IMG/VR virus record: IMGVR_UViG_3300037258_000352
Location: 40,287-104,286 of that record
DNA: 64,000 nt
Origin: a virus
Direction: 5' to 3' (one strand)
Below, piece by piece: positions 244 to 57,703 of the stretch. Made by a program: the position numbers and the translations under genes. Position 1 is the stretch's first letter. Each line of letters opens with the position of its first letter. The notes beneath the pieces are model-generated. The model was not told the DNA's origin. It ran no database searches and was given only the letters and a program-made list of their open reading frames with translations.

Positions 244-317
244 CCTCCGCGTCTACCGGCGTCCGCCACGCCAGTCTGTAATGTCACAAGACTACATCCG
301 TGGGTGGTGACCGTCAA
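244..317 (-). promoter_or_regulatory. Class A promoter, leader hairpin and RBS for the 13-234 gene
   Basis: On the minus strand, TTGACG (312-317), a 17-base spacer, and TAGTCT (289-294). A hairpin GGCGT-loop-ACGCC (258-272) with a GGCGG loop follows, then GACGCGGAGG. The stop codon TAG of the upstream gene is the first three bases of the -10 box. Confidence 0.7.
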
Positions 318-1357: not shown

Positions 1358-1428
1358 CCTCCGTGTCTCCGGGCCGGTCCGCTCCGGCCCTCTGACCTGT
1401 CTATCGCCGCCCGGGCGCGGTTCGTTAC
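1358..1428 (-). promoter_or_regulatory. Class B promoter, leader hairpin and RBS for the 846-1352 gene
   Basis: On the minus strand, GTAACG (1423-1428), 17 bases, GATAGA (1400-1405), a hairpin of seven base pairs with loop AGCGGA (1371-1390), and GACACGGAGG (1358-1367). The TAA of the upstream gene (1425-1427) lies inside the -35 box. Confidence 0.75.
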
Positions 1429-1924: not shown

Positions 1925-1994
1925 CCTCCGTGTCTGGAGCGGGTCCGCACCCGCCCTACACACCTTGTATCGCTACCCGCCCCGCCGGTGTTAC
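1925..1994 (-). promoter_or_regulatory. Class B promoter, leader hairpin and RBS for the 1772-1915 gene
   Basis: On the minus strand, GTAACA (1989-1994), 17 bases, GATACA (1966-1971), hairpin GCGGGT-GCGG-ACCCGC (1939-1954), GACACGGAGG (1925-1934). The upstream gene's stop codon TAA (1991-1993) lies inside the -35 box. This is one of the cleanest copies. Confidence 0.8.
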
Positions 1995-3111: not shown

Positions 3112-3167
3112 TTGCTTCCGTCCTCCGTGTCCCAGCCGGGTCCGTCGCCCGGCGCTCGCTACCTGCG

Positions 3168-3383: not shown

Positions 3384-3458
3384 GGGGGCCTCCCTTGTCT
3401 CGGTGGCCCGGGTGGGGCCGCTCACTATCTGTATCGCCGCCCGGTGTGCGGGTGTTAC
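3384..3458 (-). promoter_or_regulatory. Class B promoter for the 3168-3383 gene
   Basis: On the minus strand, GTAACA (3453-3458), 17 bases, GATACA (3430-3435), then a C-rich leader and an AAGGGAGG ribosome site instead of the usual cassette. The upstream TAA stop (3455-3457) is inside the -35 box. Confidence 0.7.
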
Positions 3459-4147: not shown

Positions 4148-4254
4148 CCTCCGTGTCTGTGCTGGCCCGCACCAGCAACCCCCAGGGTAAACCTGGGTGG
4201 TCCCAGCGTCAACGCTTACAACCTGTGTATCGGCCGGGACCACCACCGCGTTAC
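4148..4254 (-). promoter_or_regulatory. Stacked class B and class A promoters, leader hairpin and RBS for the 3686-4138 gene
   Basis: On the minus strand, class B GTAACG (4249-4254), 17 bases, GATACA (4226-4231), then 13 bases later class A TTGACG (4207-4212), 17 bases, TACCCT (4184-4189). Hairpin GCTGG-loop-CCAGC (4161-4176) and GACACGGAGG (4148-4157) follow. Both promoters feed the same leader. Confidence 0.75.
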
Positions 4255-6231: not shown

Positions 6232-6410
6232 CCTCGTGTGTCACGGGCACCTCCCGTGACACCGTCACGGCTAGTCACGGGCCGTGTCACGGCGTCGTCA
6301 CGCGGGTTTGTCACGGGCTGTCACGCGTGACAAACCCGGTGACCTCACACCCACCGCCCGCACCGTCCCCCCCGACTGTCACGGCTGTCACAGGGCCCGT
6401 GTCATACCTT
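6232..6410. repeat. Cluster of TGTCACGG repeats (iteron-like)
   Basis: GTCAC or its complement occurs about a dozen times in under 180 bases, for example at 6240, 6256, 6264, 6274, 6286, 6297, 6310, 6320, 6339, 6378 and 6387. Several copies extend to TGTCACGGGC. A perfect palindrome TGTCACGCGTGACA lies at 6319-6332. The stretch is non-coding and sits between the transfer-like genes and the MerR-like operon. It may be an origin, a partition or transfer site, or a dense operator. Confidence 0.7.
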
Positions 6411-6851
6411 GCTCGCGGCCATACTCCTTCGCTGGTGCAACATCCGCGCACCGCGCTCCAGCCTATGGAAATTGCGCATCAACAGCGGGGTCACTTCCCG
6501 CCGAGCGGTACGTAAATCGCCCACACCGAACAGTCGCCTAAATTCGGACAGGTCATCACACCCGGAGTCGTCTCCCCATGACTGGGAGTACCTGACGTCG
6601 TAGCCGTGGACTTTGTGGAGCCACAGGGCGATGGCTTGGACCCCAGCGACGAGGACGAGCCCGTATTCGTGGGGTTTCGCGTCGCAGTCGTTCCCGGAGA
6701 GTTCCACTTTCCCTTCCGCGCCGCCGCGGATGGGTTGGACATGCGCTTTCCGGGTTCGGATTTTCAGTTCCGTCGCGGTCAACGCATGCCCAGCTTCGTG
6801 GATAGCGACACCCATGAGCAGATCAATCTCACGGGGTGGGGTGGGGGTCAT
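6402..6851 (-). CDS. Predicted zinc metallopeptidase (HEAGH motif)
   Basis: 149 residues. GVAIHEAGHALTATEL (about residues 14-29) is a classic HExxH zinc-protease motif, in the context seen in FtsH/M41-like peptidases. A later YGLVLVAGVQAIA could carry the helix with further ligands. The third zinc ligand is not certain, so activity is inferred. ATG overlaps the stop of the ATPase gene upstream as ATGA. Confidence 0.65.
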   Translation of the reverse strand: MTPTPPREIDLLMGVAIHEAGHALTATELKIRTRKAHVQPIRGGAEGKVELSGNDCDAKPHEYGLVLVAGVQAIALWLHKVHGYDVRYSQSWGDDSGCDDLSEFRRLFGVGDLRTARREVTPLLMRNFHRLERGARMLHQRRSMAASKV

Positions 6852-8293
6852 GCTGCTGCCTCATTCCCCCCGACCTGCGGGTTCCGCACCGGAATCCACC
6901 CACGGTCAGACTTCTCGATCCGACCGTCCTTGGCCATGTACTTATAGAGACTGGCCCTTGACCACCCGCAATCAGCGAGGAGGTTGATAAACGAGTTCGC
7001 TTCCAACCGGTCCGTGCCGCTGGCCAGGAACTCGGTGACTACTTCGGCGAGGACCTCCGCGAACTCCTCCGGGGTCAGACCGTCTTTCGGGGGGTCCCCG
7101 ATCATCCGGGCGACTGTGGGGTGGGTGGGGGCGTCCGGGTCAGCGAGTTCCGTGTCATCGTCAAGGTCGGATGCGTCGAGCTCGAAATCAACGTCTCCGT
7201 CGTCGTTGGTGACGATGATCCGGTCTCCGACCAGGGCCAGTTCCGACTCCTCAAGCTCGGGGTCGTCGTCGTAGAGCTCCTCGAGCGCGGCGAGGTACTC
7301 CGCGTCGTCGGGATCGAACCCATCGATTTCGTCGTCATCAGCGTCGACGTCTATGGGGGTCGGTGCGACGGCTTGCGCCGCAGCGACCAACGCCGACCCA
7401 GTCACAGGACCGGGGACGATCATCCCGTTCTGCTTGACTAGGTCCAACGGGGTGATGTGAGTGGTCCACAAGTCCCCCAGCGAATCTGCGGTGACCTGGC
7501 ACATGTCCCCGAGGTTCGCGGCGACATACGCGGCAGCCGACGCGAACGTGTGCTCACCGACCCCATCGGACCACGACCGGTGGGTCATCAACTTCTCCCG
7601 GACCGTCATCCCGGGACCGACGAGGTAGTGCATCCCGGGGTCGTCGGCGCCCCACTGCGACGGTTTCGCGCCGGCGTTGACGACTTCCTCTGGGAGGGAG
7701 TACTGGTCGTATTCGGAGTCGGTGATGCCGTACGCGCGGTAGGACCCCATCTGGTTCCGGACGGTGGTGGGGATGTTGTCCCAGGTTGGTTGCTGGATGC
7801 TGTACGTGAGTTGCCCACCAGCGGACCGCAACGCGACCGCGAGCCCGACGATCTCCTTGGACTCGGCCAGTCTCCACGCCTCTTCGATGTGGATCCGCAG
7901 GAACCGCAGGCTCGATGACGGGGCCCACTGCTTGAGACCTTCCCTCGAGAGGTGGCTGGTCCGCTCCGGCAGGGTGCGGTTGAGGAGTTGCCGCAGGAGC
8001 CGCTTCGCGCGACCGGGGTCGATCTCGTACATCTGCAGGCACCCAGCGACGTCTTGGTAGGACTGGATGCCTTTGACGGTGTCAATCAAAATCTGGTCGA
8101 TGCGCATCGCACCGCAGGTCAGCAGGACCGGGAGTTCCCCCCACGTCTTCCCGGAGCCGGTGGTCCCGGAGATCAGGCAGTGGACCCCACCCTCGGGTCG
8201 AGCGATTCTGAACAGGCCGGTTTCCCCGTCGGAGCGGCGGCTGACGGGGATCCCGGAGAACGGGTTCGCGCCCTTGAGGAGCTTGATCTTCAT
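6848..8293 (-). CDS. TraB/FtsK-like DNA translocase ATPase
   Basis: 481 residues, soluble. Walker A GTTGSGKT near residue 40 and a Walker-B-like LRFLRIHIEEAW near residue 130 define a P-loop ATPase of the FtsK/TraB group, which moves double-stranded DNA between cells or compartments. The middle (PEEVVNAGAKPSQWGADDPGM) is like the Streptomyces plasmid transfer type. An acidic stretch (about 330-400) precedes a C-terminal winged helix (CGWSRASLYKYMAKDGRIEK). It lacks membrane segments, which the next gene upstream supplies. The ATG at 8291-8293 has an AGGAG site. Confidence 0.75.
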   Translation of the reverse strand: MKIKLLKGANPFSGIPVSRRSDGETGLFRIARPEGGVHCLISGTTGSGKTWGELPVLLTCGAMRIDQILIDTVKGIQSYQDVAGCLQMYEIDPGRAKRLLRQLLNRTLPERTSHLSREGLKQWAPSSSLRFLRIHIEEAWRLAESKEIVGLAVALRSAGGQLTYSIQQPTWDNIPTTVRNQMGSYRAYGITDSEYDQYSLPEEVVNAGAKPSQWGADDPGMHYLVGPGMTVREKLMTHRSWSDGVGEHTFASAAAYVAANLGDMCQVTADSLGDLWTTHITPLDLVKQNGMIVPGPVTGSALVAAAQAVAPTPIDVDADDDEIDGFDPDDAEYLAALEELYDDDPELEESELALVGDRIIVTNDDGDVDFELDASDLDDDTELADPDAPTHPTVARMIGDPPKDGLTPEEFAEVLAEVVTEFLASGTDRLEANSFINLLADCGWSRASLYKYMAKDGRIEKSDRGWIPVRNPQVGGNEAAA

Positions 8294-12257: not shown

Positions 12258-12361
12258 GTAACGCCGGCTGGGGTGTGGCCGATACAGGGGTGTAAGCGTT
12301 GACACCCGCACACCACAGGTTTACTCTTGAGAGGTCGGTGCGGACCGACGGGACACGGAGG
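12258..12361 (+). promoter_or_regulatory. Stacked class B and class A promoters, leader hairpin and RBS
   Basis: GTAACG (12258-12263), 17 bases, GATACA (12281-12286), then TTGACA (12299-12304), 17 bases, TACTCT (12322-12327). Hairpin GGTCGGT-GCGG-ACCGAC (12333-12349) begins 5 bases after the -10, and GACACGGAGG follows (12352-12361). This is the most complete copy in the window. Confidence 0.85.
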
Positions 12362-13264: not shown

Positions 13265-13332
<68 letters not shown>

Positions 13333-15991: not shown

Positions 15992-16282
15992 GTGAAGGGT
16001 CGTCGGCTCAACGTTCATCACACGTTCGTCCTCGTCGGAGGAGAGAGGTGGTACGCCGTGATCGACGGTGAGATCGTCAGTGTCCGGCCGGTGGAGCTCG
16101 CGGAGTCCCGGGGTACCGGTACGTGTGTGCATTGCCAGGGGGAGTGCCGGTCCTATTGCAAGTCGTGTCGTAAGCCGGTGTGCTCGGGTGACTTCGACGT
16201 TCACCGGGGGGATCACGACCCGGAGGACCGGACCGCGACGTGGACCCGAACCGCCTCCCTAGCCAACATTGACGGTATGTAG
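15992..16282 (+). CDS. B-box-like zinc-finger protein
   Basis: 96 residues. The C-terminal half has CVHC, CRSYCKSCRKPVC and HRGDH, spaced like a B-box zinc finger. The N-terminal VLVGGERWYAVIDGEIVSV is a short beta unit. Start GTG at 15992 is coupled to the gene before through a seven-codon frame (15972-15995). A GTG at 16058 is an alternative. Its last codons (IDGM) contain the -35 box of the next promoter. Confidence 0.65.
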   Translation: MKGRRLNVHHTFVLVGGERWYAVIDGEIVSVRPVELAESRGTGTCVHCQGECRSYCKSCRKPVCSGDFDVHRGDHDPEDRTATWTRTASLANIDGM

Positions 16283-16331
16283 GTTGAAGTGTAGCCTTGA
16301 GGGAGTCGGTGCGGACCGGCAGACACGGAGG
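16269..16331 (+). promoter_or_regulatory. Class A promoter, leader hairpin and RBS
   Basis: TTGACG (16269-16274), 17 bases, TAGCCT (16292-16297), hairpin GTCGGT-GCGG-ACCGGC (16305-16320), GACACGGAGG (16322-16331). The -35 box is within the coding end of the upstream gene. Confidence 0.8.
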
Positions 16332-16486: not shown

Positions 16487-16527
16487 GCGCGGGTCTGACG
16501 GGGACCTGGGACACGGAGGACACGATC

Positions 16528-26253: not shown

Positions 26254-26321
26254 CCTCCGTGTCTCGCGGGGTCCCGTTGACCCTCACACCTATGTATCGC
26301 CGGGTCGGGCCCGGGTGTTAC
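26254..26321 (-). promoter_or_regulatory. Class B promoter, leader and RBS for the 26021-26248 gene
   Basis: On the minus strand, GTAACA (26316-26321), 17 bases, GATACA (26293-26298), GACACGGAGG (26254-26263). Upstream gene's TAA (26318-26320) lies in the -35 box. The stem (GCGGGGTC... region) is imperfect. Confidence 0.7.
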
Positions 26322-26644: not shown

Positions 26645-26708
26645 CCTCCGTGTCTGGTTGGTCCGCACCAACACCCACAACACTACATGCGAGGGTACCA
26701 ACCGTCAA
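26645..26708 (-). promoter_or_regulatory. Class A promoter, leader hairpin and RBS for the 26318-26635 gene
   Basis: On the minus strand, TTGACG (26703-26708), 17 bases, TAGTGT (26680-26685), hairpin GTTGGT-GCGG-ACCAAC (26657-26672), GACACGGAGG (26645-26654). The stop TGA of the upstream gene is within the -35 box. Confidence 0.8.
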
Positions 26709-31106: not shown

Positions 31107-31170
31107 CCTCCGTGTCGTTTGGGTCCCGCAACCCACCCATAAACCTACACCTACAGGTACTAGTGGGCAA
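31107..31170 (-). promoter_or_regulatory. Class A promoter, leader hairpin and RBS for the 30063-31100 gene
   Basis: On the minus strand, TTGCCC (31165-31170), 17 bases, TAGGTT (31142-31147), hairpin TGGGT-TGCGGG-ACCCA, GACACGGAGG (31107-31116). Confidence 0.75.
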
Positions 31171-31656: not shown

Positions 31657-31727
31657 CCTCCGTGTCGTCGAGGGCCCACCGCTGGGGCCGTACACCCATG
31701 TATCGAGATCCTGGTCCTGAGCGTTAC
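31657..31727 (-). promoter_or_regulatory. Class B promoter, leader hairpin and RBS for the 31433-31651 gene
   Basis: On the minus strand, GTAACG (31722-31727), 17 bases, GATACA (31699-31704), hairpin GGCCC-CAGCGGT-GGGCC, GACACGGAGG. This would drive the anti-sigma gene too. Confidence 0.75.
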
Positions 31728-31766: not shown

Positions 31767-31970
31767 TCAGGTTTCGGTGGGGGCCAGGACCCGGAGCCAT
31801 TCGCTGACGCCTACGGTTTCCTGGCATCCACCGGACACCCGGACCACCGACGCGGCGATCTGCGCGAGCTGTGCGTGAACCGCAGCCAACGGTACATAAT
31901 GTTGAGTATCTGTTCTCACTGATAGGTCTAGGAGACGTTCCGCCTCGAGGAAATGTTCAGGTCCGTTCAT
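31767..31970 (-). CDS. Small helical protein, unknown function
   Basis: 67 residues, MNGPEHFLEAERLLDLSVR start; likely helical hairpin. ATG overlaps the methyltransferase stop as ATGA. Confidence 0.6.
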   Translation of the reverse strand: MNGPEHFLEAERLLDLSVRTDTQHYVPLAAVHAQLAQIAASVVRVSGGCQETVGVSEWLRVLAPTET

Positions 31971-32761
31971 TTCGTGGCCTCCACGATCAGGGTGTGGATA
32001 TCGGTCCCGACCGATCGAAACGCCCCGACCGGTGCTTGCCGGAACGTGCCCCCGACCTCCTCGATCAGCGCCCGGGTCGCGGCGATGGGGCGTTGCCGCC
32101 CGTACCCCAGTGAGGGCGGCACGATCGCCCGTAGCTGCCCACCGGGGAGGAGCCGGTCCCACGCGAGGGCCAGGTGCTGCGCCCACGCGTACCGCTGCCC
32201 CGGCAGGGTAAACGGGGGGTTCATGACGACCGCGTCGAACCGGATCCCCGCCGGGCCCGCGAACTCCGCGTAGTCCTCCAGGGTGCCGTCCCACACGTGC
32301 ATCCCCACCGGCCCGTTACGCCGTAGATAGGTCCTACGGACGGGGTCCGGTTCCACCGCAGTGATGTGGACCGCGAGGTACCGGTCCCGGATGGCGCGGA
32401 CCAAGGCCCCGTCACCAGCTGACGGTTCCAGCACCCGCGCCCCGGCGGGCAGGTCCAACCCGTCGACGAGCTCCGTAGCTAGTTCGGGTGGGGTCGGCCA
32501 GTAGGACATTTCCTTATCCCGGTACGCCGACGGGGGTGGTAGGACCGTGACCCCCGTCAGCGTCTGCAGGTCCGGGCGAGGGTCCCGCTGGTACACGAAC
32601 GCTCGCTCCCGGGTGTCCCAGTGACCACCGCCGGCGAGCCGGGGCAGGACCTGGTGGACCTCGATGTAGGTGGTGCGGTCGGTGATGATGGGGGTGCGGA
32701 TCGTGTTGTGGTCCGCGACCGCGCCGCACAGGACATCGTGCGCGGCCTGTGACAAAGTCAT
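31967..32761 (-). CDS. DNA adenine methyltransferase (gamma-class-like)
   Basis: 264 residues. LEPSAGDGALVRAI binds S-adenosylmethionine and VVMNPPFTLPGQRYA is the NPPF catalytic motif of N6-adenine methyltransferases. It would methylate the element's DNA and could protect it from restriction. No target-recognition subunit is visible next door. ATG overlaps the DUF3560 gene's stop as TGATG. Confidence 0.8.
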   Translation of the reverse strand: MTLSQAAHDVLCGAVADHNTIRTPIITDRTTYIEVHQVLPRLAGGGHWDTRERAFVYQRDPRPDLQTLTGVTVLPPPSAYRDKEMSYWPTPPELATELVDGLDLPAGARVLEPSAGDGALVRAIRDRYLAVHITAVEPDPVRRTYLRRNGPVGMHVWDGTLEDYAEFAGPAGIRFDAVVMNPPFTLPGQRYAWAQHLALAWDRLLPGGQLRAIVPPSLGYGRQRPIAATRALIEEVGGTFRQAPVGAFRSVGTDIHTLIVEATK

Positions 32762-33795
32762 CACGGAGTCACCTCCTGCGGGGTGTCGGTGAGCTCGTCG
32801 AGGTCGAGGGTGTCTTCGGGTGGTGTCGCCGGCTCGTGAGCGGTGATCTTGTCGACGGGGACCTTGTCGTTCCACGAGTAGTCCGTTTTGACGCTCACAG
32901 TCACTTTGTTGACCTTGACGACCTCACGCCATCCACCCCAGTACTTGATCAGGTCACCGGGTTTGATCACCGACAGGTCCACCGGGTTGAAACGCCCCGC
33001 CGCGATCTCACCGGCGAGGAACTCCTGCCAGTACCGGATCTGCTCATCCAAATACGCGACCCGGATCAGGACCTGCTCCCGGTGCGTTCCCGTCGCTGGG
33101 CCGTGCTCGAACACGTACACCGGCTGGCGCTTACCGTCCAGTGAGCGGTTGGTGTACCCGTCGAGGGTCCGTTGGTCCCGCCGCCGGTCCGCTTCCAACG
33201 TCTTGAGCCGGCGCATCACGGTCCCGTGGTTCTCCCGGTGCCGCATGTGGTTCGCTGCGGACTCCGCACCCTGCGCGGCGCGCGCTGCTTCCTCCCCGGC
33301 CTCGATCGACTTCCGTTGGTGACCGTCCATGCGCTTGAGGTCCCGGCGGTGACCCCGCTCGGAGTGGTGGCCCCGCAGGATCGGTTGACCCATGGGGATC
33401 CCGTCCGCGATTTCCTGCGCCGCAGCCCACCGCGAGTCGGCCTCACTCTGCTTCCGGGCGGCTTTCGCGGCGAGCGCGTCGGCCCGGTCATCCATGTGTT
33501 CGGCGCGGTCGGCTTCGGATTCCTCCATTGAACGGGGTGGGGCCTCGACCTCGATTTCCACCTCGAACCCAGCTTCGCGGAGCACGTCGGCGGTGGCCTC
33601 GAATAAACCAAGGTTCGGGGCCCGGTCGCGGGAGTGTGAGACGCCGATCATGCGGATCGACGGCATGTACCTCCATCCCCGGATCCGGAACGTGGCCTGA
33701 GCTGCTTTGATCGCTTCCCACGCCCCGTCGCCCTTACAGGTCCCGTCTAGCAGGGTGCCGTCGGCGGCGGTGTGCACGATCCGTAGCGCGCTCAC
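32761..33795 (-). CDS. DUF3560 protein
   Basis: 344 residues. The helical middle (RADALAAKAARKQSEADSRW then PMGQPILRGHHSERGHRRDL) matches DUF3560. The C-terminal part (KPGDLIKYWGGWREVVKVNK) is a small beta domain. Family function unknown, but members sit on plasmids and phages. GTG at 33793-33795 overlaps the upstream stop as GTGA. Confidence 0.75.
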   Translation of the reverse strand: MSALRIVHTAADGTLLDGTCKGDGAWEAIKAAQATFRIRGWRYMPSIRMIGVSHSRDRAPNLGLFEATADVLREAGFEVEIEVEAPPRSMEESEADRAEHMDDRADALAAKAARKQSEADSRWAAAQEIADGIPMGQPILRGHHSERGHRRDLKRMDGHQRKSIEAGEEAARAAQGAESAANHMRHRENHGTVMRRLKTLEADRRRDQRTLDGYTNRSLDGKRQPVYVFEHGPATGTHREQVLIRVAYLDEQIRYWQEFLAGEIAAGRFNPVDLSVIKPGDLIKYWGGWREVVKVNKVTVSVKTDYSWNDKVPVDKITAHEPATPPEDTLDLDELTDTPQEVTP

Positions 33796-34115
33796 AGTAG
33801 GACTGCCACATCGAACCGTGCGTCCACGACGAGTTCCTTCGCGATGACGTTGACCGCGCAACCGGGGCACAGCAGCTCATAACCGGGGATCGACACGGTT
33901 CCGAGCCCGTGGGCGGTGTCGTCGGAGCACCGGACGTATGTCCGGACCTGGGTGCCGTTGGGGGCGGTGAGGGCCTCCGCGTTGACGACCCAGTCCAACC
34001 CGGACAGGGCGTTGAGGCTGTCGATGGTGTTCTGCTGGTCGTTTCCTGCGCGGGTGGCCATCCCGATCGCTGACTCGACTATGGGGTCGAGGCCGGTTGT
34101 GAATCCCGTGTCCAT
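33792..34115 (-). CDS. Small protein with Cys cluster, unknown function
   Basis: 107 residues; helical N-terminus, then YVRCSDDTAHGLG and LLCPGCAVNVIAKELV. ATG follows GACACGGAGG (34126-34135) and a class B promoter. Confidence 0.65.
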   Translation of the reverse strand: MDTGFTTGLDPIVESAIGMATRAGNDQQNTIDSLNALSGLDWVVNAEALTAPNGTQVRTYVRCSDDTAHGLGTVSIPGYELLCPGCAVNVIAKELVVDARFDVAVLL

Positions 34116-34125
34116 TGCTAGTGTC

Positions 34126-34193
34126 CCTCCGTGTCGTCCGGGTCCGTCACCCGGTGTCTACCTGTGTATCGCTGACCACCGACGGGGTGTTAC
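34126..34193 (-). promoter_or_regulatory. Class B promoter, leader hairpin and RBS for the 33792-34115 gene
   Basis: On the minus strand, GTAACA (34188-34193), 17 bases, GATACA (34165-34170), hairpin CCGGGT-GACGG-ACCCGG (34139-34154), GACACGGAGG (34126-34135). Confidence 0.8.
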
Positions 34194-35190: not shown

Positions 35191-35253
35191 CCTCCGTGTC
35201 TGCGGGTTCCGCAACCCGCCCTTGACGTTACACGTGGGAGGGGCCCGCGACAA
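35191..35253 (-). promoter_or_regulatory. Class A promoter, leader hairpin and RBS for the 35030-35185 gene
   Basis: On the minus strand, TTGTCG (35248-35253), 17 bases, TAACGT (35225-35230), hairpin GCGGGTT-GCGG-AACCCGC (35202-35219), GACACGGAGG (35191-35200). Confidence 0.8.
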
Positions 35254-36010: not shown

Positions 36011-36039
36011 TGTATCGGCGCTCACTCTCTGGGCGTTAC
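36011..36039 (-). promoter_or_regulatory. Class B promoter for the 35312-35932 gene
   Basis: On the minus strand, GTAACG (36034-36039), 17 bases, GATACA (36011-36016). The TAA of the clamp-like gene (36036-36038) is inside the -35 box. The leader has a CAGCCGG hairpin but a plain AGGAGG site. Confidence 0.75.
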
Positions 36040-41139: not shown

Positions 41140-41208
41140 CCTCCGTGTCTGCCGGTCCGCTACCGACGCTTACCGCATGATCCTACACCTGCACCCACTA
41201 CCTGACTA
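41140..41208 (-). promoter_or_regulatory. Class A promoter, leader hairpin and RBS for the recombination operon
   Basis: On the minus strand, TAGTCA (41203-41208), 17 bases, TAGGAT (41180-41185), hairpin CGGT-AGCGG-ACCG, GACACGGAGG (41140-41149). The upstream gene's stop TAG (41206-41208) is the start of the -35 box. The -35 is weak. Confidence 0.6.
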
Positions 41209-41472: not shown

Positions 41473-42227
41473 CCGACGCCACCGAACGTGAGGACACCCT
41501 GCGACAGTCGGGCTGTCACCGCCCGTTCACACTGCGCTTCCCGCTTCTCGAACCCGATCGCACGCCGGCCCGTCGCTCGAGCTGCGACCAGCGTGGAGCA
41601 GCTACCAGCGAAGCAATCAAGGATCAGACCACCCAGTGGACAGCCGTATTCAATCAGAGGCTCAAGGATCCCCCGTGGCTTCTCAGTCTCGTTAATAGCG
41701 GTGCCGTGCATGGATCGTGAGTAGATGACCGAGCCCATCATGCGAGGACCACCGTTGTGACTCACATAGGAACCAGAGTCGATGTGCCCGGTGTGGGCCG
41801 GTTGTGCCTTGCGACGGACCTGCTTCTTGACTGCATCCTGCGTCGTTGGGGCGAGATGGTGAACGTCCGACCACGGACCTCGGTACCAGTGCGTTGCGTG
41901 CTCATGCATTCGCCGGAATCGGTCAGCGTGGAACGTTGACCCGTTGTGCTTCTCCCACACCACGTCCTGCGAGAACTTCCAGCCCGTGAACTCATCCCGC
42001 CTATCGAGGAACATCCGCATCGACCCGAAACACCACATCGAGTTCCCCGGGATCAGCGACGGCCACCCAGCGGGCCACCGGTCCCAATCCAGACTCGTCT
42101 CCCCGTACGGGGGATCACACACGGTGAGGTCCGGGACGATCCCCAACTCGGGGAGGATGTCCCGGAAGTCCCCGCAGTACAACGTGACCTCGTCGTCGGC
42201 GTAGTAGGGCTCCGGGCGGGTCACCAT
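41469..42227 (-). CDS. DNA methyltransferase (DPPY, beta-class-like)
   Basis: 252 residues. VCDPPYGETSLDWD is the catalytic DPPY and LDCFAGSCSTLVAARATGRR the cofactor-binding motif of the N6/N4 methyltransferase family. The order DPPY before FxGxG fits the beta class. Middle region (residues 80-180) should choose the target. ATG overlaps the helicase stop. Confidence 0.85.
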   Translation of the reverse strand: MVTRPEPYYADDEVTLYCGDFRDILPELGIVPDLTVCDPPYGETSLDWDRWPAGWPSLIPGNSMWCFGSMRMFLDRRDEFTGWKFSQDVVWEKHNGSTFHADRFRRMHEHATHWYRGPWSDVHHLAPTTQDAVKKQVRRKAQPAHTGHIDSGSYVSHNGGPRMMGSVIYSRSMHGTAINETEKPRGILEPLIEYGCPLGGLILDCFAGSCSTLVAARATGRRAIGFEKREAQCERAVTARLSQGVLTFGGVG

Positions 42228-44614
42228 GGTTGCCCGATCCCTATCCGGGCGTACTTCCCCACGAACGACAGCCGCACGTCCCCCGTCGGCCCGTTCCTAT
42301 GTTTGTCGACGATCACCGTGATGTCCTGCGGTTCGTCATCACGACGCCACAGCAACAGGATCTTCGACGCGTTGTGACCCACCGCGCGGGACTCCCGCAG
42401 GTCCTCCTTCGTTGGCCGGCCACCGATCCGTTTCGTCGGCTCCGAGTTGAGCTGATGCAACACCACGATCGGGCACCCGAGCTGCTTCGCGAGCTCCTTA
42501 AGCTCCCACGACAACCGCGACAACTGCTCCTGCCGGGACACCTTCGGATCCGCCGGCGACATCAACGACAACTGATCCACCACCACCAACCCCGGGTGCC
42601 CCAACTGCTGACACCGCGCCCGGATCTGCGCCACAGACAACCCGGGGGTGTCATCCACCCACAAGGGCCACTCCTGAATCCGCTCCGCAGCTTTCTTCGC
42701 CCGGTACTGATCTTCCGGTCCGAGCTGGTGTTCCATCAGATCCGACAGGGGGACGGTGCCAACGTCCGCGACCCACCGGGCCATGACCTCATCCGTCGTC
42801 ATTTCCAGGGTGAACATCACCGTCCGGACCCCGTCTTGGGCCGCGGCCCGCGCGATCGACCCCCCGAACAGGGAGTTGTGCGTAGGGATCATCGTCGGCC
42901 CTGCGAGGTAGAGGTGATCACTGTTGTCGACCTCGATACACCGCACGGGGACGCTTGCCACTGGCCGGACCGCGCGAATCATCCTGCGGGATGACCGCTG
43001 TGGGGCTCTCTGCCGCTCTACTTTCCTGGTTAGTTTGAAGACTTTGTCTCCGGGCGTAAAATTGATCATGTAGCAGGTTGAGGACTTCTCCGTCCTGCCT
43101 TTGACCCGTTTGGTTCGCATGGTGGCTCGGTACCCAAGACTCAGGATCAGTTCTAGAGTTCCCTCGGCCAGCACCTTGCTGGTGACAGCGAACTGGACCT
43201 TTCCTAGTTTGCAGACATACCCGTCGGTGTCTAGTAGCCCGGCTAGTAGCTCCCGGCGTTGTCCTACAGACGCCCGCAGGTAGGCGACCGGAATGTGTTT
43301 GTTCATCACTAAACCGGCGCGCCTTAGATCTGTGATCAGTCCATAGACTGTCCTATGGGGACACGTCCTCACTGCTTTCCCGATGGGTGGCCCTACTTCA
43401 TAACCGCAGAACGAGATGTTGTCGAACACTTCTGGATCAGCGCCGCACATCGTCCCATGCAAGGAATCACCGTCTCCGAGCCAGCAACCCAACACATAAG
43501 GATCTATCGGGAGATCTTCCGACTCGGGTAACTCCAACGGAGCTGCCAGCTTGACCGAGTGGTTGACGTATGTCCCGAATCGGAGCGTCGCCATGATCTG
43601 CTCCGTCGTCACCACTGAGGGATGGATCTGCTTCCACCGCTGGTCGATGGAATAAGGGGAGGTCCTGGCCAGGGTGTTATCAACGTGGGTGCATCGTGAA
43701 GATCGTGTCTCCGTCAGCCACTGGTGATCTGCGTCCGCTACGAGCACTGATCCGTCAGAGAACTCCACCTCATAGCAGGGACGACCCGTCATCACCGGGG
43801 TCGCGTTCGTGACCGTGGTCGGTTTGCCGTCCGCTCCGAACACTTGGTCGCCTACCTGAACCGTGCCCATGGTCGTCCAACCTGTCGGCGTGGCCAGGGG
43901 CGTATCCAGAGCGAGAGCCTTCCCGACGCTGGTGTTGGCTGCGACGACGATCAGCTCACCGATCCGCAACCCCCCGGAGAGTTGCTCATCGAGCGCTGGC
44001 CACGACGTTTTCACGACCCCCACCGGAGGCCGGTCCAACGACTCAATGAACGACCACACCGCCGGCTCCGCATGCACCAGCGTCTGCGACTGGTCCCGGG
44101 ACGTGGTGGCGTCGGTGAACTCCCGGCGCGCGAAGTCCAACACCTCATCCAGCGACGCGCCTTTCGACCCGTGCTCCGCGAGTTGAGTGATCCGCAAACC
44201 GGCCTCCCGGACCCGCCGCAGCACAGCTTTCGCGGCGACGATCTCCGCGTAGTAGGTGACGTTCGCGGCGGTGGGAGTGGCTTGCATCAGGGTGTGCAGG
44301 TACGGGCCGCCCCCCACCCGCAGGAGCTCACCACGCCGGTCCAACTCCTCCGACACGGTCACAGGGTCCGCGGGTTCCCCGCCCGCCCACAACGCCGTCA
44401 CAGCAGCCCAGATTTGGCTGTGACCGGGCCGGTAGAAGTCTTCCGGGGTCAACACCCCGGCGACGTCGTCCAACGCCCTAAACGACACCAGAACCGACCC
44501 GAGGACCGCTTGCTCCGCGTGGAGGTCCTGCGGTGGCTGGTTGTCCAGCTCGGGTTCGCCCTCCTCGCTCGGGGCGTCGTCCCATCCGGAGGTGTCAGCG
44601 GACACCGGGAACAC
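42221..44614 (-). CDS. dnaB: Replicative DnaB helicase with intein
   Basis: 797 residues before splicing. N-terminal DnaB domain (LHAEQAVLGSVLVSFRALDD) and C-terminal RecA-like motor (FGGSIARAAAQ, VVVDQLSLMSP, LHQLN), which unwinds DNA at the fork. A 348-residue intein splits the Walker A motif between NTSVGK and SLFGG. Without the intein the protein is about 449 residues, the usual DnaB size. The start GTG at 44612-44614 overlaps the loader gene by 20 bases; a later GTG at 44602 is possible. The DnaC-like loader upstream is its partner. Confidence 0.9.
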   Translation of the reverse strand: MFPVSADTSGWDDAPSEEGEPELDNQPPQDLHAEQAVLGSVLVSFRALDDVAGVLTPEDFYRPGHSQIWAAVTALWAGGEPADPVTVSEELDRRGELLRVGGGPYLHTLMQATPTAANVTYYAEIVAAKAVLRRVREAGLRITQLAEHGSKGASLDEVLDFARREFTDATTSRDQSQTLVHAEPAVWSFIESLDRPPVGVVKTSWPALDEQLSGGLRIGELIVVAANTSVGKALALDTPLATPTGWTTMGTVQVGDQVFGADGKPTTVTNATPVMTGRPCYEVEFSDGSVLVADADHQWLTETRSSRCTHVDNTLARTSPYSIDQRWKQIHPSVVTTEQIMATLRFGTYVNHSVKLAAPLELPESEDLPIDPYVLGCWLGDGDSLHGTMCGADPEVFDNISFCGYEVGPPIGKAVRTCPHRTVYGLITDLRRAGLVMNKHIPVAYLRASVGQRRELLAGLLDTDGYVCKLGKVQFAVTSKVLAEGTLELILSLGYRATMRTKRVKGRTEKSSTCYMINFTPGDKVFKLTRKVERQRAPQRSSRRMIRAVRPVASVPVRCIEVDNSDHLYLAGPTMIPTHNSLFGGSIARAAAQDGVRTVMFTLEMTTDEVMARWVADVGTVPLSDLMEHQLGPEDQYRAKKAAERIQEWPLWVDDTPGLSVAQIRARCQQLGHPGLVVVDQLSLMSPADPKVSRQEQLSRLSWELKELAKQLGCPIVVLHQLNSEPTKRIGGRPTKEDLRESRAVGHNASKILLLWRRDDEPQDITVIVDKHRNGPTGDVRLSFVGKYARIGIGQPW
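42875..43918 (-). mobile_element. Class 3-type intein with LAGLIDADG endonuclease
   Basis: 348 residues, from ALALDTPLATP to PTHN, followed by Ser. It starts with Ala, not Cys or Ser, and has Trp in block B (DADHQWLTET), Cys in block F (VRCIEVDN) and Thr before the final HN. This matches the WCT set of class 3 inteins. YVLGCWLGDGDS and LAGLLDTDGY are the two LAGLIDADG motifs. Base composition is visibly lower in GC than the surrounding gene. Confidence 0.85.
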
Positions 44615-45265: not shown

Positions 45266-46204
45266 TCAGTAGTTCATCGGCGCGTCATACGCGTCGTCCG
45301 CGAGGTGCTCGAAATGCCGCGCGTAACCTCCGCTACCCCGCCTATCGCTGCCCGAGCGCCCAGCGTTACCGACCGTGGCCGGCTCGTCCTCCCACCGCTG
45401 CCCGTTGAGCCACGTCGTCGCGTGCGCCACGTAGGACCCCGTCCGGTGCAGCTCCACGACGTACCGATCCAACCCAGCCATGATCACATCCGGGTCGGCT
45501 GCCTTGATCGCTTTCGGCCACGCCTTCCACGCGTCCTTCTTGGCCGTCTTTCGGGGGTAAACCGCCCAGAACTTGGCGAAGGTTTCCTCGGCTTTGCGGT
45601 TGATCGGGACAACCGGCCTAGACGAGGTCGGTGAGGGCATCCCGTCCAGCGTTCCCTGTCCGTCCTGGCTGGGGTTGGCCTGCGCCGCGCGCGCGGGTGC
45701 GCCTACGCGTGTGTGCGCCCGCGCCCGTGGAGAGATGATCTCTTCGTTAGAAGAGATCAAGGGGTTAGTGGTCGGTTCCACTGGTCGGTTAACTTCAAAA
45801 GAGTCTTTGGCCGGCTCAGCAGGTGAGCCGGGGGGGGCCTGCAGGTGAGCCGGGGGGGGCTCAGGGATGGACCGGGGGGGGCTCACCTTTGGTGGGAGCG
45901 TCGAAATGTGGAAGTTCCACCCGGCGAGCCCCCCGTCACTTCTGGTCCGGGCGGTCTTCGCGACGACGTTGATCTCTTCCAGTTTCACCATCGCTCGTTT
46001 GTAGGAGGAGACGCTGAGGCCGGCTCGTTCAGCGACCGCTTCTCGGCTGGGGAAGCAGTCACCGCCGCTGTCGGCGAAGCTGCGGAGCGCGATGTAGACG
46101 CGGAGACTGGCGCCGTCGAGGTCGTATTGGAGTAGCCAGATCGGGATGATCGAGTACGGGCCGATGTCTGTGGTGACCCGGGAGTTCTCTTGCTGTTCGC
46201 TCAT
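45266..46204 (-). CDS. Replication-initiator-like winged-helix protein
   Basis: 312 residues. The N-terminal 100 residues are a winged helix (SREAVAERAGLSVSSYKRAM) as in phage replication initiators. After a disordered linker, FWAVYPRKTAKKDAWKAWPK and YVAHATTWLNGQRWEDE give the C-terminal helical part found in such initiators and DnaD-like proteins. It should recognise the origin and recruit the loader. ATG overlaps the previous stop as ATGA. Confidence 0.75.
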   Translation of the reverse strand: MSEQQENSRVTTDIGPYSIIPIWLLQYDLDGASLRVYIALRSFADSGGDCFPSREAVAERAGLSVSSYKRAMVKLEEINVVAKTARTRSDGGLAGWNFHISTLPPKVSPPRSIPEPPPAHLQAPPGSPAEPAKDSFEVNRPVEPTTNPLISSNEEIISPRARAHTRVGAPARAAQANPSQDGQGTLDGMPSPTSSRPVVPINRKAEETFAKFWAVYPRKTAKKDAWKAWPKAIKAADPDVIMAGLDRYVVELHRTGSYVAHATTWLNGQRWEDEPATVGNAGRSGSDRRGSGGYARHFEHLADDAYDAPMNY

Positions 46205-47017: not shown

Positions 47018-47668
47018 TCACGCCACCACCCCCACGTCCTCGTGGAGCCATGACGCAGCGTCGTCGGGGAGTAGCTGAGCGAGACGCCTGATCGCCCTGT
47101 GCTGCAGCGCTTTCACGGCACCGTCGTTGCGGTTCAATGCCGCTGCGGTCTCCGTGACGGACAGGCCAGCGTAGAACCGTAGGCCGATGCAATCCCGCTG
47201 GTCTCTGGGTAGTTTCCGGAGACACGTCGTGAGGTGCTGGGCGTAGAACTTGGTCATGATCCGGCTGATGGCTTCGCCGGCGGTGTTTTCTTCCGCGTAC
47301 CGTTCGGGGACTTTGTCGACGGTCCGGTCCCAGCGGTGTCTCGCTGATCGGACGTGGTCGAGGAGGAGGTTCCGGGCGATGGTGACGACCCACGCACCGA
47401 ACTCTTTCCCGTTGCCACGGTCAGCGACGGATTGGATCCTCCGCAGTGCGCGGCACCACACTTCACCGGCCATTTGCTCGACGGTGGAGCGGTCGCGGTC
47501 GTCGAGCCGGTAGAGGAGGTACCGGTAGATCATCAGGTGGTGTCGTTCGTACAGGACGCTGAAAGCGTCGCGGCCTGTGTCGCCGCCCTGCTGGGCGAGG
47601 GTGACGAGTTCCCAGTCCCCGAGTGGGGCGTTGTCCAGTACGTTTACTGTCGATGGCTGAGCGGTCAT
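47018..47668 (-). CDS. ECF-type sigma factor
   Basis: 216 residues. Region 2 (FSVLYERHHLMIYRYLLYRL and VEQMAGEVWCRALRRI) and region 4 (LPRDQRDCIGLRFYAGLSVT, then GAVKALQHRAIRRL) of an ECF sigma factor. It directs RNA polymerase to non-housekeeping promoters. The element has a second promoter class (GTAAC-17-GATACA), and -35 boxes of GGAAC/GTAAC type fit ECF factors. No adjacent anti-sigma, but an RsdA-like protein is at 31.2 kb. RBS is a variant cassette (GACACAGAAGGAGC). Confidence 0.85.
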   Translation of the reverse strand: MTAQPSTVNVLDNAPLGDWELVTLAQQGGDTGRDAFSVLYERHHLMIYRYLLYRLDDRDRSTVEQMAGEVWCRALRRIQSVADRGNGKEFGAWVVTIARNLLLDHVRSARHRWDRTVDKVPERYAEENTAGEAISRIMTKFYAQHLTTCLRKLPRDQRDCIGLRFYAGLSVTETAAALNRNDGAVKALQHRAIRRLAQLLPDDAASWLHEDVGVVA

Positions 47669-49000: not shown

Positions 49001-49029
49001 TATATCGCCCGCGAAGTTTTGGACGTTAC
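49001..49029 (-). promoter_or_regulatory. Class B promoter for the leftward sigma-factor operon
   Basis: On the minus strand, GTAACG (49024-49029), 17 bases, GATATA (49001-49006). If the ECF factor reads class B, it would activate its own operon. Confidence 0.65.
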
Positions 49030-49112: not shown

Positions 49113-49179
49113 TTGACGGGTGACCCGTTGGGTGTACGGTGGTGGGGTTGGTAGCGGACCAACACCCCTGACACGGAGG
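49113..49179 (+). promoter_or_regulatory. Class A promoter, leader hairpin and RBS for the rightward transfer/late genes
   Basis: TTGACG (49113-49118), 16 bases, TACGGT (49135-49140), hairpin GTTGGT-AGCGG-ACCAAC, GACACGGAGG (49170-49179). Confidence 0.75.
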
Positions 49180-49252: not shown

Positions 49253-50214
49253 GCGCACCTGAACGGTTAACCAGCGGAAACAACCCAGTAGCGGTGCAGG
49301 TCGAGGAACCGAAACCAATCTGGTGGAGGTCGTTCATCGCGCAGCTCACCGGCCGGACACTGGACCGCGCTGTCGAGGTCGACGAGGTCGATCAGGATGA
49401 GGCGGTCGACCCCGAGTCCACGGAACCCGACACCACAAACACCATCGCTGGTGACGATGCCCCGGTTGGTGAACCGCTAGAAGCGGAACTCGTCGACGAG
49501 ATCCCCGCGCCAGCCGAGCCCGAGGTGCGGCCGGCGGACGAGACCGAACTCGAAGTCCTCGACGCGGAATTGGTTGAAGACCCACCGACCGTCGCCGCGG
49601 TCCCCGAGATAGCCGAGGTGGCCGACACACCGGTGGTGGAGATCCCCGACGTCGTTCACGTTCCCGAGGTCGAGGAGGTGGAACCGGAACCCGCTGCCGA
49701 GGTGGTTGAGGTCCCCGAGCTGGACGTTGCCCCCGCCACCGTGGTGTCGGAGCCCGAAGTTGAGGAGCCGGTCACTGTTGTTGAGGCACCGACACCCGAG
49801 TTGGAGGCCACCGACCCGGAGGTCGCAGACCCAGAGCCCAACGCAACCGTCTACGTGGAGGTCGAGGTAATTCCGTGTGACGACACCCGGGCCCCGTCTG
49901 GGCCGGTCAAAGATCGTGATGATCTGACGGAACGGTGGGTAGACGAACTCCGCAACGGAGGCCACCGCCAAGCACACGGGACGTGGGAAGACCGGGGCGT
50001 ATTCGGCGGCAAGAGTGAGTGCACCCTGCAGGTCGCCATCAACACCTATGACATCCCACTCGGTGAGCTGCGGGACAAGTACGGGGATCGGTTCATCGGG
50101 GAGGTACTCACCCGCAACGACATCGAGAGGCAGTCATTCGATCAGATCGCCGACTACATCGAGCGGACGCAACTGTCCCGGTCACGCCGGAAAGAAATGG
50201 AGATGGAGCGATGA
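49249..50214 (+). CDS. Acidic Pro/Glu/Val-rich protein of the transfer-like module
   Basis: 321 residues. Residues 40-210 are a low-complexity run of Pro, Glu, Val and Asp (VPEVEEVEPEPAAEVVEVPE type). The C-terminal 100 residues look folded (DLTERWVDELRNGGHRQ to YIERTQLSRSRRKEMEME). It probably spans a long distance as a flexible arm next to the coupling ATPase encoded downstream, by a 4-base overlap. Confidence 0.7.
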   Translation: MSAPERLTSGNNPVAVQVEEPKPIWWRSFIAQLTGRTLDRAVEVDEVDQDEAVDPESTEPDTTNTIAGDDAPVGEPLEAELVDEIPAPAEPEVRPADETELEVLDAELVEDPPTVAAVPEIAEVADTPVVEIPDVVHVPEVEEVEPEPAAEVVEVPELDVAPATVVSEPEVEEPVTVVEAPTPELEATDPEVADPEPNATVYVEVEVIPCDDTRAPSGPVKDRDDLTERWVDELRNGGHRQAHGTWEDRGVFGGKSECTLQVAINTYDIPLGELRDKYGDRFIGEVLTRNDIERQSFDQIADYIERTQLSRSRRKEMEMER

Positions 50215-51878
50215 CCGGCAAAACCGCAGGGTTCGCCGCTGCCGCCGTCGGTGCCGTCGCGCTCGTCGGGTGGTTCACCCACCCCGTCATCACCGTCGTT
50301 ACCTGCGTCGCACTGGCGTTGCTGGTCGGGTGGGGATCGGTGTGGCGCTACCAGCACGCTGGGTCCGCGACCCTGATGAGCCGGTGGACAGAACGGTCCC
50401 AGAAGCATCACGGGGTCGCGTCCGCCTGGTCGATCCTGCGGGTCTCCTCGACCTGGGCGGCCCGCCGGAAAGCGAAGGTCCTCCTCCCCGGCGTCACCGG
50501 ACGGGTCCACCACAGTCATCTCGCTACCCGATTGATCCGAGTCGGGTGGGTGTGGGTGGTGTCCACCGTTGAGCAACACACTCTGCGGTTCGGTGGGCCT
50601 CGACAGGGCAAGTCCGGGGAGTTGGGGACCCGGATCCTCGGCCCTGGGGCGGTCCTGGTCACCAGCACGGGCGGGGACCTGATCCGCAACACTGCGGCAC
50701 TCCGCGCCCGGGTCGGGCCGGTGTACGTCTTCAACCCCTGCAACATCGGTGGGATCAAGTCAACGGTCAGCTTCGGTCTCCTCGACGGGTGTGAGGAGCC
50801 ACCGGTCGCGGTGGCCCGCGCTACTGATCTCATTTCGGGGACACCGATGGGGCAGTCACATCGGAACGAGGAATGGGTCGAGCAGGCTAATTCGGCGCTC
50901 GCGTCGCTGATGCATGCCGCAGCGCTCGCCGGGAAAACGATGCACCACGTCCAACGGTGGGTCGCGGACCCCGACGGGGCCACCGCCGAAGTGCTGCGGT
51001 ACCTGAAAGCTTCCCCGGAACCGGCTATGGGATTTCAGGCGTTGCAGTTTTTCAATTCCGGTCGACCGCAGGCCTCGATCTGTATGACGATCATGCCGGC
51101 GTTGCGGTGGCTCGCTGATCCGGTGGCTACGAGATGCGCGGAGGCAGGGTCGTTCGACGTGGAGAAGTTCCTCAACGAGCAGGGCACGATCTATCTCCTC
51201 GCCGAGAAGGATGGGCTCGTGGCACCGTTGGTGACGGTATTCGCTGGTCACATTCTCCGCTCCGCACGCCGCATCGCTGATCGGCGCCCGCACGAACGGT
51301 TGACCCCCGGGTTCCGGGTGGTGCTCGATGAGGCCCCGTCGATCTGCCCCCTGCCGCTGCCGTCGTGGACCTCGGACATGGGTAAGCGGAACATCTCCAT
51401 GCACATCGGGGCGCAGTCCCTGTCACAACTGAAAGCCAGGTGGGGGGAGAACGGTGCGGGGGCGATCCTCACCAACTGTGGGACGGTGATGGTGTTCGGT
51501 GGAACGAAAGACACCGCCGGGCTGAGTACGTTCTCTACCCTGGCGGGGGAGCGGCATGAGGGCGGGAACCGGGCTCCTCTGTTGACGCCGGCGCAGTTCC
51601 AGCAGCTCTTGCCGTTGCATGCGGTGGTGTTCGCTAACGGGATTCTCCCGGTGATCGGGAAACCGGCGATGGTGTGGGATCGACGTGACTTCAAAATGGC
51701 GCGCCGGACCGCGGTGTGGTCCCCGAGGTTGGCTGCGGTGACCGGGCCGGTGAAGACGTGGCTGCGTCGTAAGCCAGTCCCAGTACCACCCCGGCGGATG
51801 GCTGCGCTGCCCGCTGGGTCGCCGGTGAAAGCGGAGTGGAAACCAGGCGTCACCGTTGGAGGCGACAGGAATGCCTAA
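50211..51878 (+). CDS. VirD4/TraG-type coupling protein
   Basis: 555 residues. Two N-terminal membrane segments (about 7-40), a Walker A of GPRQGKS type near residue 125, and a Walker B in FRVVLDEAPSICPLP near residue 370 with MHIGAQSLSQLKARWGENGA following. This is the pattern of type IV coupling proteins, which connect DNA to a secretion channel in conjugation. It is unusual next to phage terminases. Overlaps both neighbours. Confidence 0.85.
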   Translation: MTGKTAGFAAAAVGAVALVGWFTHPVITVVTCVALALLVGWGSVWRYQHAGSATLMSRWTERSQKHHGVASAWSILRVSSTWAARRKAKVLLPGVTGRVHHSHLATRLIRVGWVWVVSTVEQHTLRFGGPRQGKSGELGTRILGPGAVLVTSTGGDLIRNTAALRARVGPVYVFNPCNIGGIKSTVSFGLLDGCEEPPVAVARATDLISGTPMGQSHRNEEWVEQANSALASLMHAAALAGKTMHHVQRWVADPDGATAEVLRYLKASPEPAMGFQALQFFNSGRPQASICMTIMPALRWLADPVATRCAEAGSFDVEKFLNEQGTIYLLAEKDGLVAPLVTVFAGHILRSARRIADRRPHERLTPGFRVVLDEAPSICPLPLPSWTSDMGKRNISMHIGAQSLSQLKARWGENGAGAILTNCGTVMVFGGTKDTAGLSTFSTLAGERHEGGNRAPLLTPAQFQQLLPLHAVVFANGILPVIGKPAMVWDRRDFKMARRTAVWSPRLAAVTGPVKTWLRRKPVPVPPRRMAALPAGSPVKAEWKPGVTVGGDRNA

Positions 51879-57002: not shown

Positions 57003-57703
57003 GGCGTCCTGTGTCGACTATCGCCCCCTGCGGTCGAGACGCAGCCCTCTATGCCGTCACTCATTGGCACTACACCAAGAAACTCCCCGCCGGTCGCCTC
57101 GTGTACCACGGGGTATGGGAACTCGATCAGCGCTACACCGGGGCCGTCATCTACGGGCGCGGAGCGAACGACCGCATGTCCAAGATGGTCGGCCTCACCC
57201 AAGTCGAATGCGCGGAACTGGTCCGCGTAGCTCTCCGCGACCACACCGCGCCCGTGACACAGATCCTCGCTGAGTCGATCCGACTACTCCGGTCATCGAA
57301 CCCGGGACTCCGGGCGATCGTCTCTTACGCCGACCCGGGGCAAGGGCACCACGGAGGTATCTACCAAGCCGGGAACTGGTTGTACCTGGGACTCGGGACG
57401 CTGAACAAAGAGTTCGTCATCCACGGACGCCAGATGCATCTCCGATCAGTCCACGCAGCGGGATGGAAACAATCCCTCGCGTGGGTCCGCGCCAACGTCG
57501 ACCCACGCGCCTACGAGGTCACCCCGCCCAGGAAGCACCGCTACGTCTATCCCCTGGACAAGCCCACTCGCCGTAAGACGACCAAACTGTCCCTGCCGTA
57601 CCCCTCTGCGGTCGAAGCGTCGGAGGTGACGCGCCCCGGTTCCATCGGGGAGGGCCGGGTTCAACTCCCGGCGACCGCTCAGCCCTTCCCGGAGTCAACA
57701 TGA
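56999..57703 (+). CDS. mom: Mom-like DNA-modification protein
   Basis: 234 residues. HWHYTKKLPAGRLVYHGVWE, VGLTQVECAELVRVAL, and VSYADPGQGHHGGIYQAGNW then LHLRSVHAAGW match the Mom protein of phage Mu in motif order. Mom transfers a small acyl-like group onto adenine, making DNA resistant to restriction. GTG at 56999 overlaps the ParB-like stop as GTGA. The gene lies just before the terminases, so it can act on DNA to be packaged. The basic C-terminus is extra. Confidence 0.8.
   Translation: MRRPVSTIAPCGRDAALYAVTHWHYTKKLPAGRLVYHGVWELDQRYTGAVIYGRGANDRMSKMVGLTQVECAELVRVALRDHTAPVTQILAESIRLLRSSNPGLRAIVSYADPGQGHHGGIYQAGNWLYLGLGTLNKEFVIHGRQMHLRSVHAAGWKQSLAWVRANVDPRAYEVTPPRKHRYVYPLDKPTRRKTTKLSLPYPSAVEASEVTRPGSIGEGRVQLPATAQPFPEST

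Follow-up and report, generated by a model that had tools for sequence, protein, structure and literature searches.

The leader at positions 12258-12361 carries one of 18 copies of a short RNA hairpin whose stem sequence changes from copy to copy while pairing is kept around a CGG-containing loop. The window, i.e. the whole stretch of 64,000 nucleotides analyzed, comprises bases 40287-104286 of the IMG/VR virus record IMGVR_UViG_3300037258_000352, which has a total of 104,286 bases; coordinates below zero lie left of the window in the same record. The window contains sixteen copies, and two more lie immediately to its left (around -204 and around -3549). They consist of a 5-8 bp stem and a 4-5 nt loop containing CGG, end 1-6 nt before an extended Shine-Dalgarno (SD) sequence, and are without exception sense-oriented and immediately before an SD. 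Ten such leaders had been listed in the original prediction, and all were found in their places; the eight copies beyond these are 3135-3153, 16490-16508, 26269-26283, 31120-31135, 31673-31689, 41151-41167 and the two left of the window. Across the window, no Rfam family scored above the gathering threshold, and the leader hairpin is a shared RNA control element absent from the RNA family library searched. The leader at the start of this report and the other copies within the window are as follows (promoter classes A and B are defined further below).

12258-12284 (+): class B motif GTAAC-N17-CGATA, distal member of a tandem promoter pair
12299-12327 (+): class A promoter TTGACA-N17-TACTCT, proximal to the hairpin at 12334-12349
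12334-12349 (+): hairpin GTCGGT-GCGG-ACCGAC; class A promoter 12299-12327 ends 6 nt upstream
12352-12361 (+): extended SD GACACGGAGG, behind the hairpin at 12334-12349
16305-16320 (+): hairpin GTCGGT-GCGG-ACCGGC; class A promoter 16269-16297; SD 16322-16331
16490-16508 (+): hairpin CGGGTCT-GACGG-GGACCTG, between two genes, no recognisable promoter; SD 16510-16519
49147-49163 (+): hairpin GTTGGT-AGCGG-ACCAAC; class A promoter 49113-49140; SD 49170-49179
41151-41167 (-): hairpin GTCGGT-AGCGG-ACCGGC; weak promoter TAGTCA-N17-TAGGAT; SD 41140-41149
35202-35219 (-): hairpin GCGGGTT-GCGG-AACCCGC; class A-type promoter 35225-35253; SD 35191-35200
34138-34154 (-): hairpin CCGGGT-GACGG-ACCCGG; class B promoter 34167-34193; SD 34126-34135
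31673-31689 (-): hairpin GGCCC-CAGCGGT-GGGCC; class B promoter 31701-31727; SD 31657-31666
31120-31135 (-): hairpin TGGGTT-GCGG-GACCCA; weak class A promoter 31142-31170; SD 31107-31116
26657-26672 (-): hairpin GTTGGT-GCGG-ACCAAC; class A promoter 26680-26708; SD 26645-26654
26269-26283 (-): hairpin GGGTC-AACGG-GACCC; class B promoter 26295-26321; SD 26254-26263
4160-4177 (-): hairpin TGCTGGT-GCGG-GCCAGCA; class A promoter 4184-4212, class B 4228-4254 behind it; SD 4148-4157
3135-3153 (-): hairpin GCCGGGC-GACGG-ACCCGGC, C.A at the loop; SD 3122-3131
1937-1956 (-): hairpin GGGCGGGT-GCGG-ACCCGCTC; class B promoter 1968-1994; SD 1925-1934
1371-1390 (-): hairpin GGGCCGG-AGCGGA-CCGGCCC; class B promoter 1402-1428; SD 1358-1367
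255-275 (-): hairpin ACTGGCGT-GGCGG-ACGCCGGT; class A promoter 289-317; SD GACGCGGAGG at 244-253
752-761: SD of a class B leader without a proper hairpin

The loop had been expected to be a fixed GCGG followed by A, or nearly so. Its CGG is indeed constant, but the 5′ part varies (GCGG, AGCGG, GACGG, AACGG and GGCGG), the A after CGG is present in only 13 of the 18 copies (CGGG or CGGT in 5 of 18), and the loop differs between clades. The GCGG loops are flanked by U-A, U-G or A.A.

All GACACGGAGG or GACGCGGAGG sites in the record (n = 29) were collected, and the best simple hairpin was sought in the 30 nt preceding each, without preselection for pairing. A hairpin score of at least 13 was reached at 20 of the 29 SD sites, and 18 of these 20 hairpins had CGG in the loop, compared with 10% of the loops of hairpins at random places. 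Upstream of other GGAGG sites, a CGG-loop hairpin was present in only 6 of 295 cases (Fisher p = 2.5e-17 against 18 of 29). When the 3′ arms were exchanged among the copies, the observed combination gave 87 of 90 paired against a mean of 42, which none of 20,000 permutations matched. For the ten copies with a tetraloop, 96.7% of cells were paired compared with 57.1% after shuffling, and the covariation was 1.02 compared with 0.22; 0 of 500 shuffles reached the observed values. Two-sided changes were seen at five of the six stem pairs in these ten copies, and sliding the partner by one base reduced pairing to below 47%. Whole-leader alignment with MAFFT misplaced the arms, and short hairpin-only alignments were used for the pair counts; counts from an alignment fitted to the covariance model were excluded from the evidence. 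Since the pair-count sets were assembled around the loop, the unbiased enrichment and the arm-exchange test weigh most.

The proposal that the stem changes in sequence yet still pairs was borne out by both kinds of test, and once more in the diverged relatives, whose stems and loops are different; altogether, covariation was seen in three sequence sets. Such compensating change indicates selection on RNA pairing, and, as read from the sequences, this is where the constraint acts. Compared with dinucleotide shuffles, the folding energies were mostly unremarkable for GC-rich sequence (z from -3.1 to +0.3); what supports the hairpin is therefore covariation and not stability. The named hairpin was part of the predicted structure in all ten leaders that were folded, with the SD predicted to be mostly unpaired.

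The virus is an uncultured phage infecting actinobacteria. Phage genes in the record include a terminase and a DnaB helicase, and most structural genes appear to lie in the left part of the record, outside the window. Genes of the SsgA, WhiB and DUF5753 types suggest that the host is a sporulating actinomycete. Exact-stem patterns gave chance matches only in IMG/VR, no close relatives were obtained via the terminase and helicase, and a DNA search of isolated phages with genes 31967-33795 gave no match. Related uncultured phages, namely G001 (115 kb), G002, G003, G004 and G005, were found with promoter-plus-SD patterns. Over the part they share, G004 and the window's phage are close, with mostly 85-99% protein identity; G001 has non-structural genes in common with the window's phage at roughly 26-80% identity. 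The leader is also present in G001 and G002, where the loops are GACG(G/T), GCCG(G) or GGCG(G) and the stems again covary (94.3% paired compared with 60.4% shuffled; 17 hairpins were also tested by permutation), a result drawn from few related phages. The cation-efflux gene at -4215..-3568 has the hairpin GUAGGUC-AGCGGA-GACCUAC, and its orthologue at G001 leader 102730 has GGCCGGU-GACGU-ACCGGCC, with a different stem. Likewise, the hairpin is kept with a different sequence between gene 33792-34115 and its orthologue at G001 leader 20883, and the arms have changed with pairing intact between the corresponding leaders at G001 103774 and G002 30733. The covariance model detected copies in the related uncultured phages, but none in five isolated GC-rich actinophages (Tonitrus, Clawz, the stretch of TM4 searched, MossRose and R4), and nothing convincing in 297 actinomycete genomes, where its single match was not a leader. 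A scan of the genome collection gave two chromosomal class B-like promoters in Nocardia without a hairpin and four chance matches.

Two unrelated promoter types stand at a fixed distance from the hairpin. Class A is HrdB-like (TTGAC-N16-20-TANNNT), and all six matches in the window lead into a hairpin. Class B (GTAAC-N17-CGATA) is present 11 times in the window compared with 0.11 expected, with a 17-base spacer in 11 of 11.

1402-1428, 1968-1994, 3432-3458, 4228-4254, 12258-12284, 26295-26321: class B motifs, first six of eleven
31701-31727, 34167-34193, 36013-36039, 45343-45369, 49003-49029: class B motifs, remaining five of eleven
47018-47668 (-): ECF sigma factor gene; best solved match 6dxo chain A, E 2.6e-32

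Six CGG-loop copies are located directly behind class B (starts at 34193, 31727, 26321, 1994, 1428 and -3493), and two more have class B as the distal member of a tandem (4254/4212 and 12258/12299). More class B copies, without the hairpin, are found left of the window, and several class B leaders have no hairpin. In class A, six of seven stems start 5-7 nt past the -10 hexamer; in class B, the distance from CGATA to the stem is 8-12 nt. The originally predicted distance of 5-12 bases from the -10 box does not hold for the listed copy at 255-275, which starts 13 nt after it. By the usual promoter geometry the stem would start at +1 to about +6, and the proposed position at the start of the transcript agrees with this geometry in both classes. 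A strict promoter was found just upstream of 13 of the 18 SD sites with a hairpin compared with 1 of the 11 without (p = 0.0017), and genes inside operons have the same SD and no hairpin. This promoter enrichment suggests that the hairpin marks transcript-initial genes, whereas the SD is used at many genes. Judged by these promoter positions, the hairpin is on most early mRNAs of the phage.

The best solved match of the phage's ECF sigma factor, 6dxo chain A, is itself an ECF sigma factor, sigma-BldN of Streptomyces venezuelae. PMC2375139 quotes the sigma-BldN site as CGTAAC-N16-CGTTGA, which the class B motif resembles without being identical to it. One class B motif (49003-49029) precedes the genes that lead up to the sigma factor gene. 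The sigma factor is a candidate reader of the class B promoters, and the eleven class B motifs are likely a phage regulon of an ECF sigma factor.

Repeated hairpins are known from T4, where, according to PMC8948821, CUUCGG hairpins (Tuerk 1988, as cited there) occur in many copies in one phage, mostly intergenic, with a constant loop and variable complementary stems, and a 5′ copy stabilizes an mRNA (the gene 32 leader). The present hairpins differ in having an NNCGG-like loop with mostly U-A, U-G or C-G closure, compared with C(UUCG)G in T4, and in being tied to transcription starts and one fixed SD in a GC-rich actinophage. The start-associated sequences (SAS) of cluster K mycobacteriophages, which lie a few nt before start codons, are also alike in being a repeated extended SD restricted to non-structural genes, with conserved bases beyond rRNA pairing, and about half of them carry an extra upstream inverted repeat (ESAS; PMC3203893). 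This 17-bp repeat is conserved in sequence, in contrast to the 5-8 bp stems found here, in which sequence is free and pairing is conserved, and those who described it saw little evidence that it forms an RNA hairpin (PMC3203893). The SAS core is GGGATAGGAGCCC, compared with GACACGGAGG here. As loop, SD and stem behavior differ, the leader hairpin, by its sequence features, belongs neither to the T4 CUUCGG hairpins nor to SAS/ESAS.

Tentatively, and with a probability that we put slightly below even, we favor a role in which the 5′-terminal leader hairpin shields the end of the mRNA and leaves the SD accessible, end protection being the simplest function. Acting in cis on the mRNAs of the phage itself and starting at or a few bases past the inferred +1, the hairpin would make the 5′ end double-stranded and thereby hinder pyrophosphate removal and 5′-end-dependent decay, and it would keep the SD free from upstream pairing. 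Non-structural genes could then be strongly expressed whichever sigma factor, host-type or phage ECF, starts the transcript, with the loop being kept through a compact fold or through a factor that recognizes the loop as well. A 5′ hairpin can stabilize bacterial mRNA and impede RppH (review, PMC3997798), and PMC8948821 describes stabilization of T4 gene 32 mRNA by a 5′ CUUCGG hairpin. The leader hairpin would be the functional counterpart of this stabilizing leader, extended to many transcription units.

Several observations speak against end protection. The individual folding energies are ordinary, so stability alone fails to explain the conservation, and a pure end-protector needs no constant loop. 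To our knowledge, the leader loops match no familiar superstable tetraloop. In transcripts from the distal tandem promoters (4254/4212 and 12258/12299) the hairpin would lie about 40 nt from the 5′ end, the copy at 16490-16508 has no visible promoter, and there are the hairpin-free class B leaders. The constant loop could reflect a compact fold of the kind known from T4 CUUCGG hairpins, or else recognition by a loop-binding factor.

A loop-binding factor is central to the next reading, a close rival with a somewhat lower probability, in which the hairpins form a multi-gene RNA operator and a phage or host factor reads the CGG loop to repress or activate translation of the set. The presence of CGG in the loop of 18 copies despite widely varying stems fits this reading, as does an SD only 1-6 nt away, near enough for cover. 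The shift in loop between clades (GCGG-type in that of the window's phage, G000, and GACG or GCCG in G001) is as expected from co-evolution with a phage-encoded factor, and slightly favors such a factor. There is precedent in T4 RegA, one phage protein that controls about 30 mRNAs, also early phage mRNAs with a common signal at the ribosome-binding site; RegA sites, however, are A+U-rich and unstructured (PMC3014915), and no RegA-like protein was seen here. Further against an operator, the Pfam and PHROGs scans recognized no RNA-binding candidate, with many proteins of unknown function, and no RNA-binding family was among the 25 of 38 Pfam families listed. Moreover, the hairpin follows transcript-initial genes and not every gene with the same SD, and loop stability alone can give constant loops, as for T4 CUUCGG. 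We regard it as rather unlikely that a phage-wide post-transcriptional regulon exists in which a dedicated phage factor would read the CGG loop on 15-18 transcripts of two sigma factors, with loop and factor co-evolving (GCGG- compared with GNCG-type).

Sites for CsrA/RsmA are hairpins close to the SD with GGA in the loop. The leaders are alike in that CGGA occurs both at or within the loop and in the SD (ACGGAGG), but GGA is not invariant in the loop, for which reason a CsrA site was set aside, and no CsrA domain was among the 25 of 38 Pfam families listed. Actinomycetes are, as far as we know, generally without CsrA. An intrinsic terminator was also set aside, as no T run follows the hairpin.

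A signal to RNA polymerase, put- or nut-like and conferring termination resistance from the transcript start, would agree with the hairpin's place there and with its independence of promoter class, but we consider it improbable; the many short transcription units would gain little from anti-termination, and no boxA-like partner was noticed. Very improbable is a DNA element, either a repressor-bound inverted repeat like the phiC31 CIR and the cluster A stoperators or a mobile REP-type hairpin. The many copies at promoters are each an inverted repeat, but they are all sense-oriented just before an SD, and complementarity is conserved while stem sequence is not, which no sequence-reading DNA protein requires. 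That hairpins were merely chosen by eye from GC-rich sequence rich in them, where 16% of random 30-nt stretches reach a score of 14, has a negligible chance of being right given the enrichment (p about 3e-17), the independent covariation in relatives and the absence from five GC-rich actinophages.

There are few documented cases of structured leaders common to most transcription units of one phage, and SAS/ESAS, the comparable repeats of actinophages, were judged not to be RNA structures. In the present phage, covariation was strong enough for an RNA family to be defined from one genome and then recovered in relatives. The leaders provide a ready test case for whether phages tag the mRNAs they make for stability or coordinated translation, and such a short leader could serve as an expression part for actinomycetes.

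Several other features of the record were observed. The DnaB helicase gene (42221-44614, -) has an intein-like insertion within the P loop (GKALALDTPLATPTGWTTMGTVQVGDQ), and PHROG terminase matches to this gene look like common intein similarity. Two genes (6848-8293, -, and 50211-51878, +) were noted for an FtsK/TraB-like ATPase akin to Streptomyces plasmid proteins, and a Pfam batch scan also indicated a TraG/TraD-like coupling protein, probably 50211-51878. These FtsK/TraB-like and TraG/TraD-like genes suggest a phage-plasmid or conjugative heritage. An intergenic cluster of GTCACGG in direct and inverted repeats (6236-6404) is iteron- or operator-like, and a GACGCA microsatellite (13275-13320) gives a TQTQTQ tract in a predicted protein and is possibly phase-variable. 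Possible anti-restriction functions were noted for a Mom-like DNA modification gene (57011-57703, +) and a cytosine methyltransferase-like gene left of the window (-3496..-2309). In an apparently unrelated virus (L034 and L067; IMGVR_UViG_3300017963_000003, 192 kb), several TTGAC promoters lead to a near-constant hairpin (GGCTGGCG-ATGAC-CGCTGGC type) followed by (A/G)ACACGGAGG, a layout similar to that of the window's phage, but with a fixed stem.
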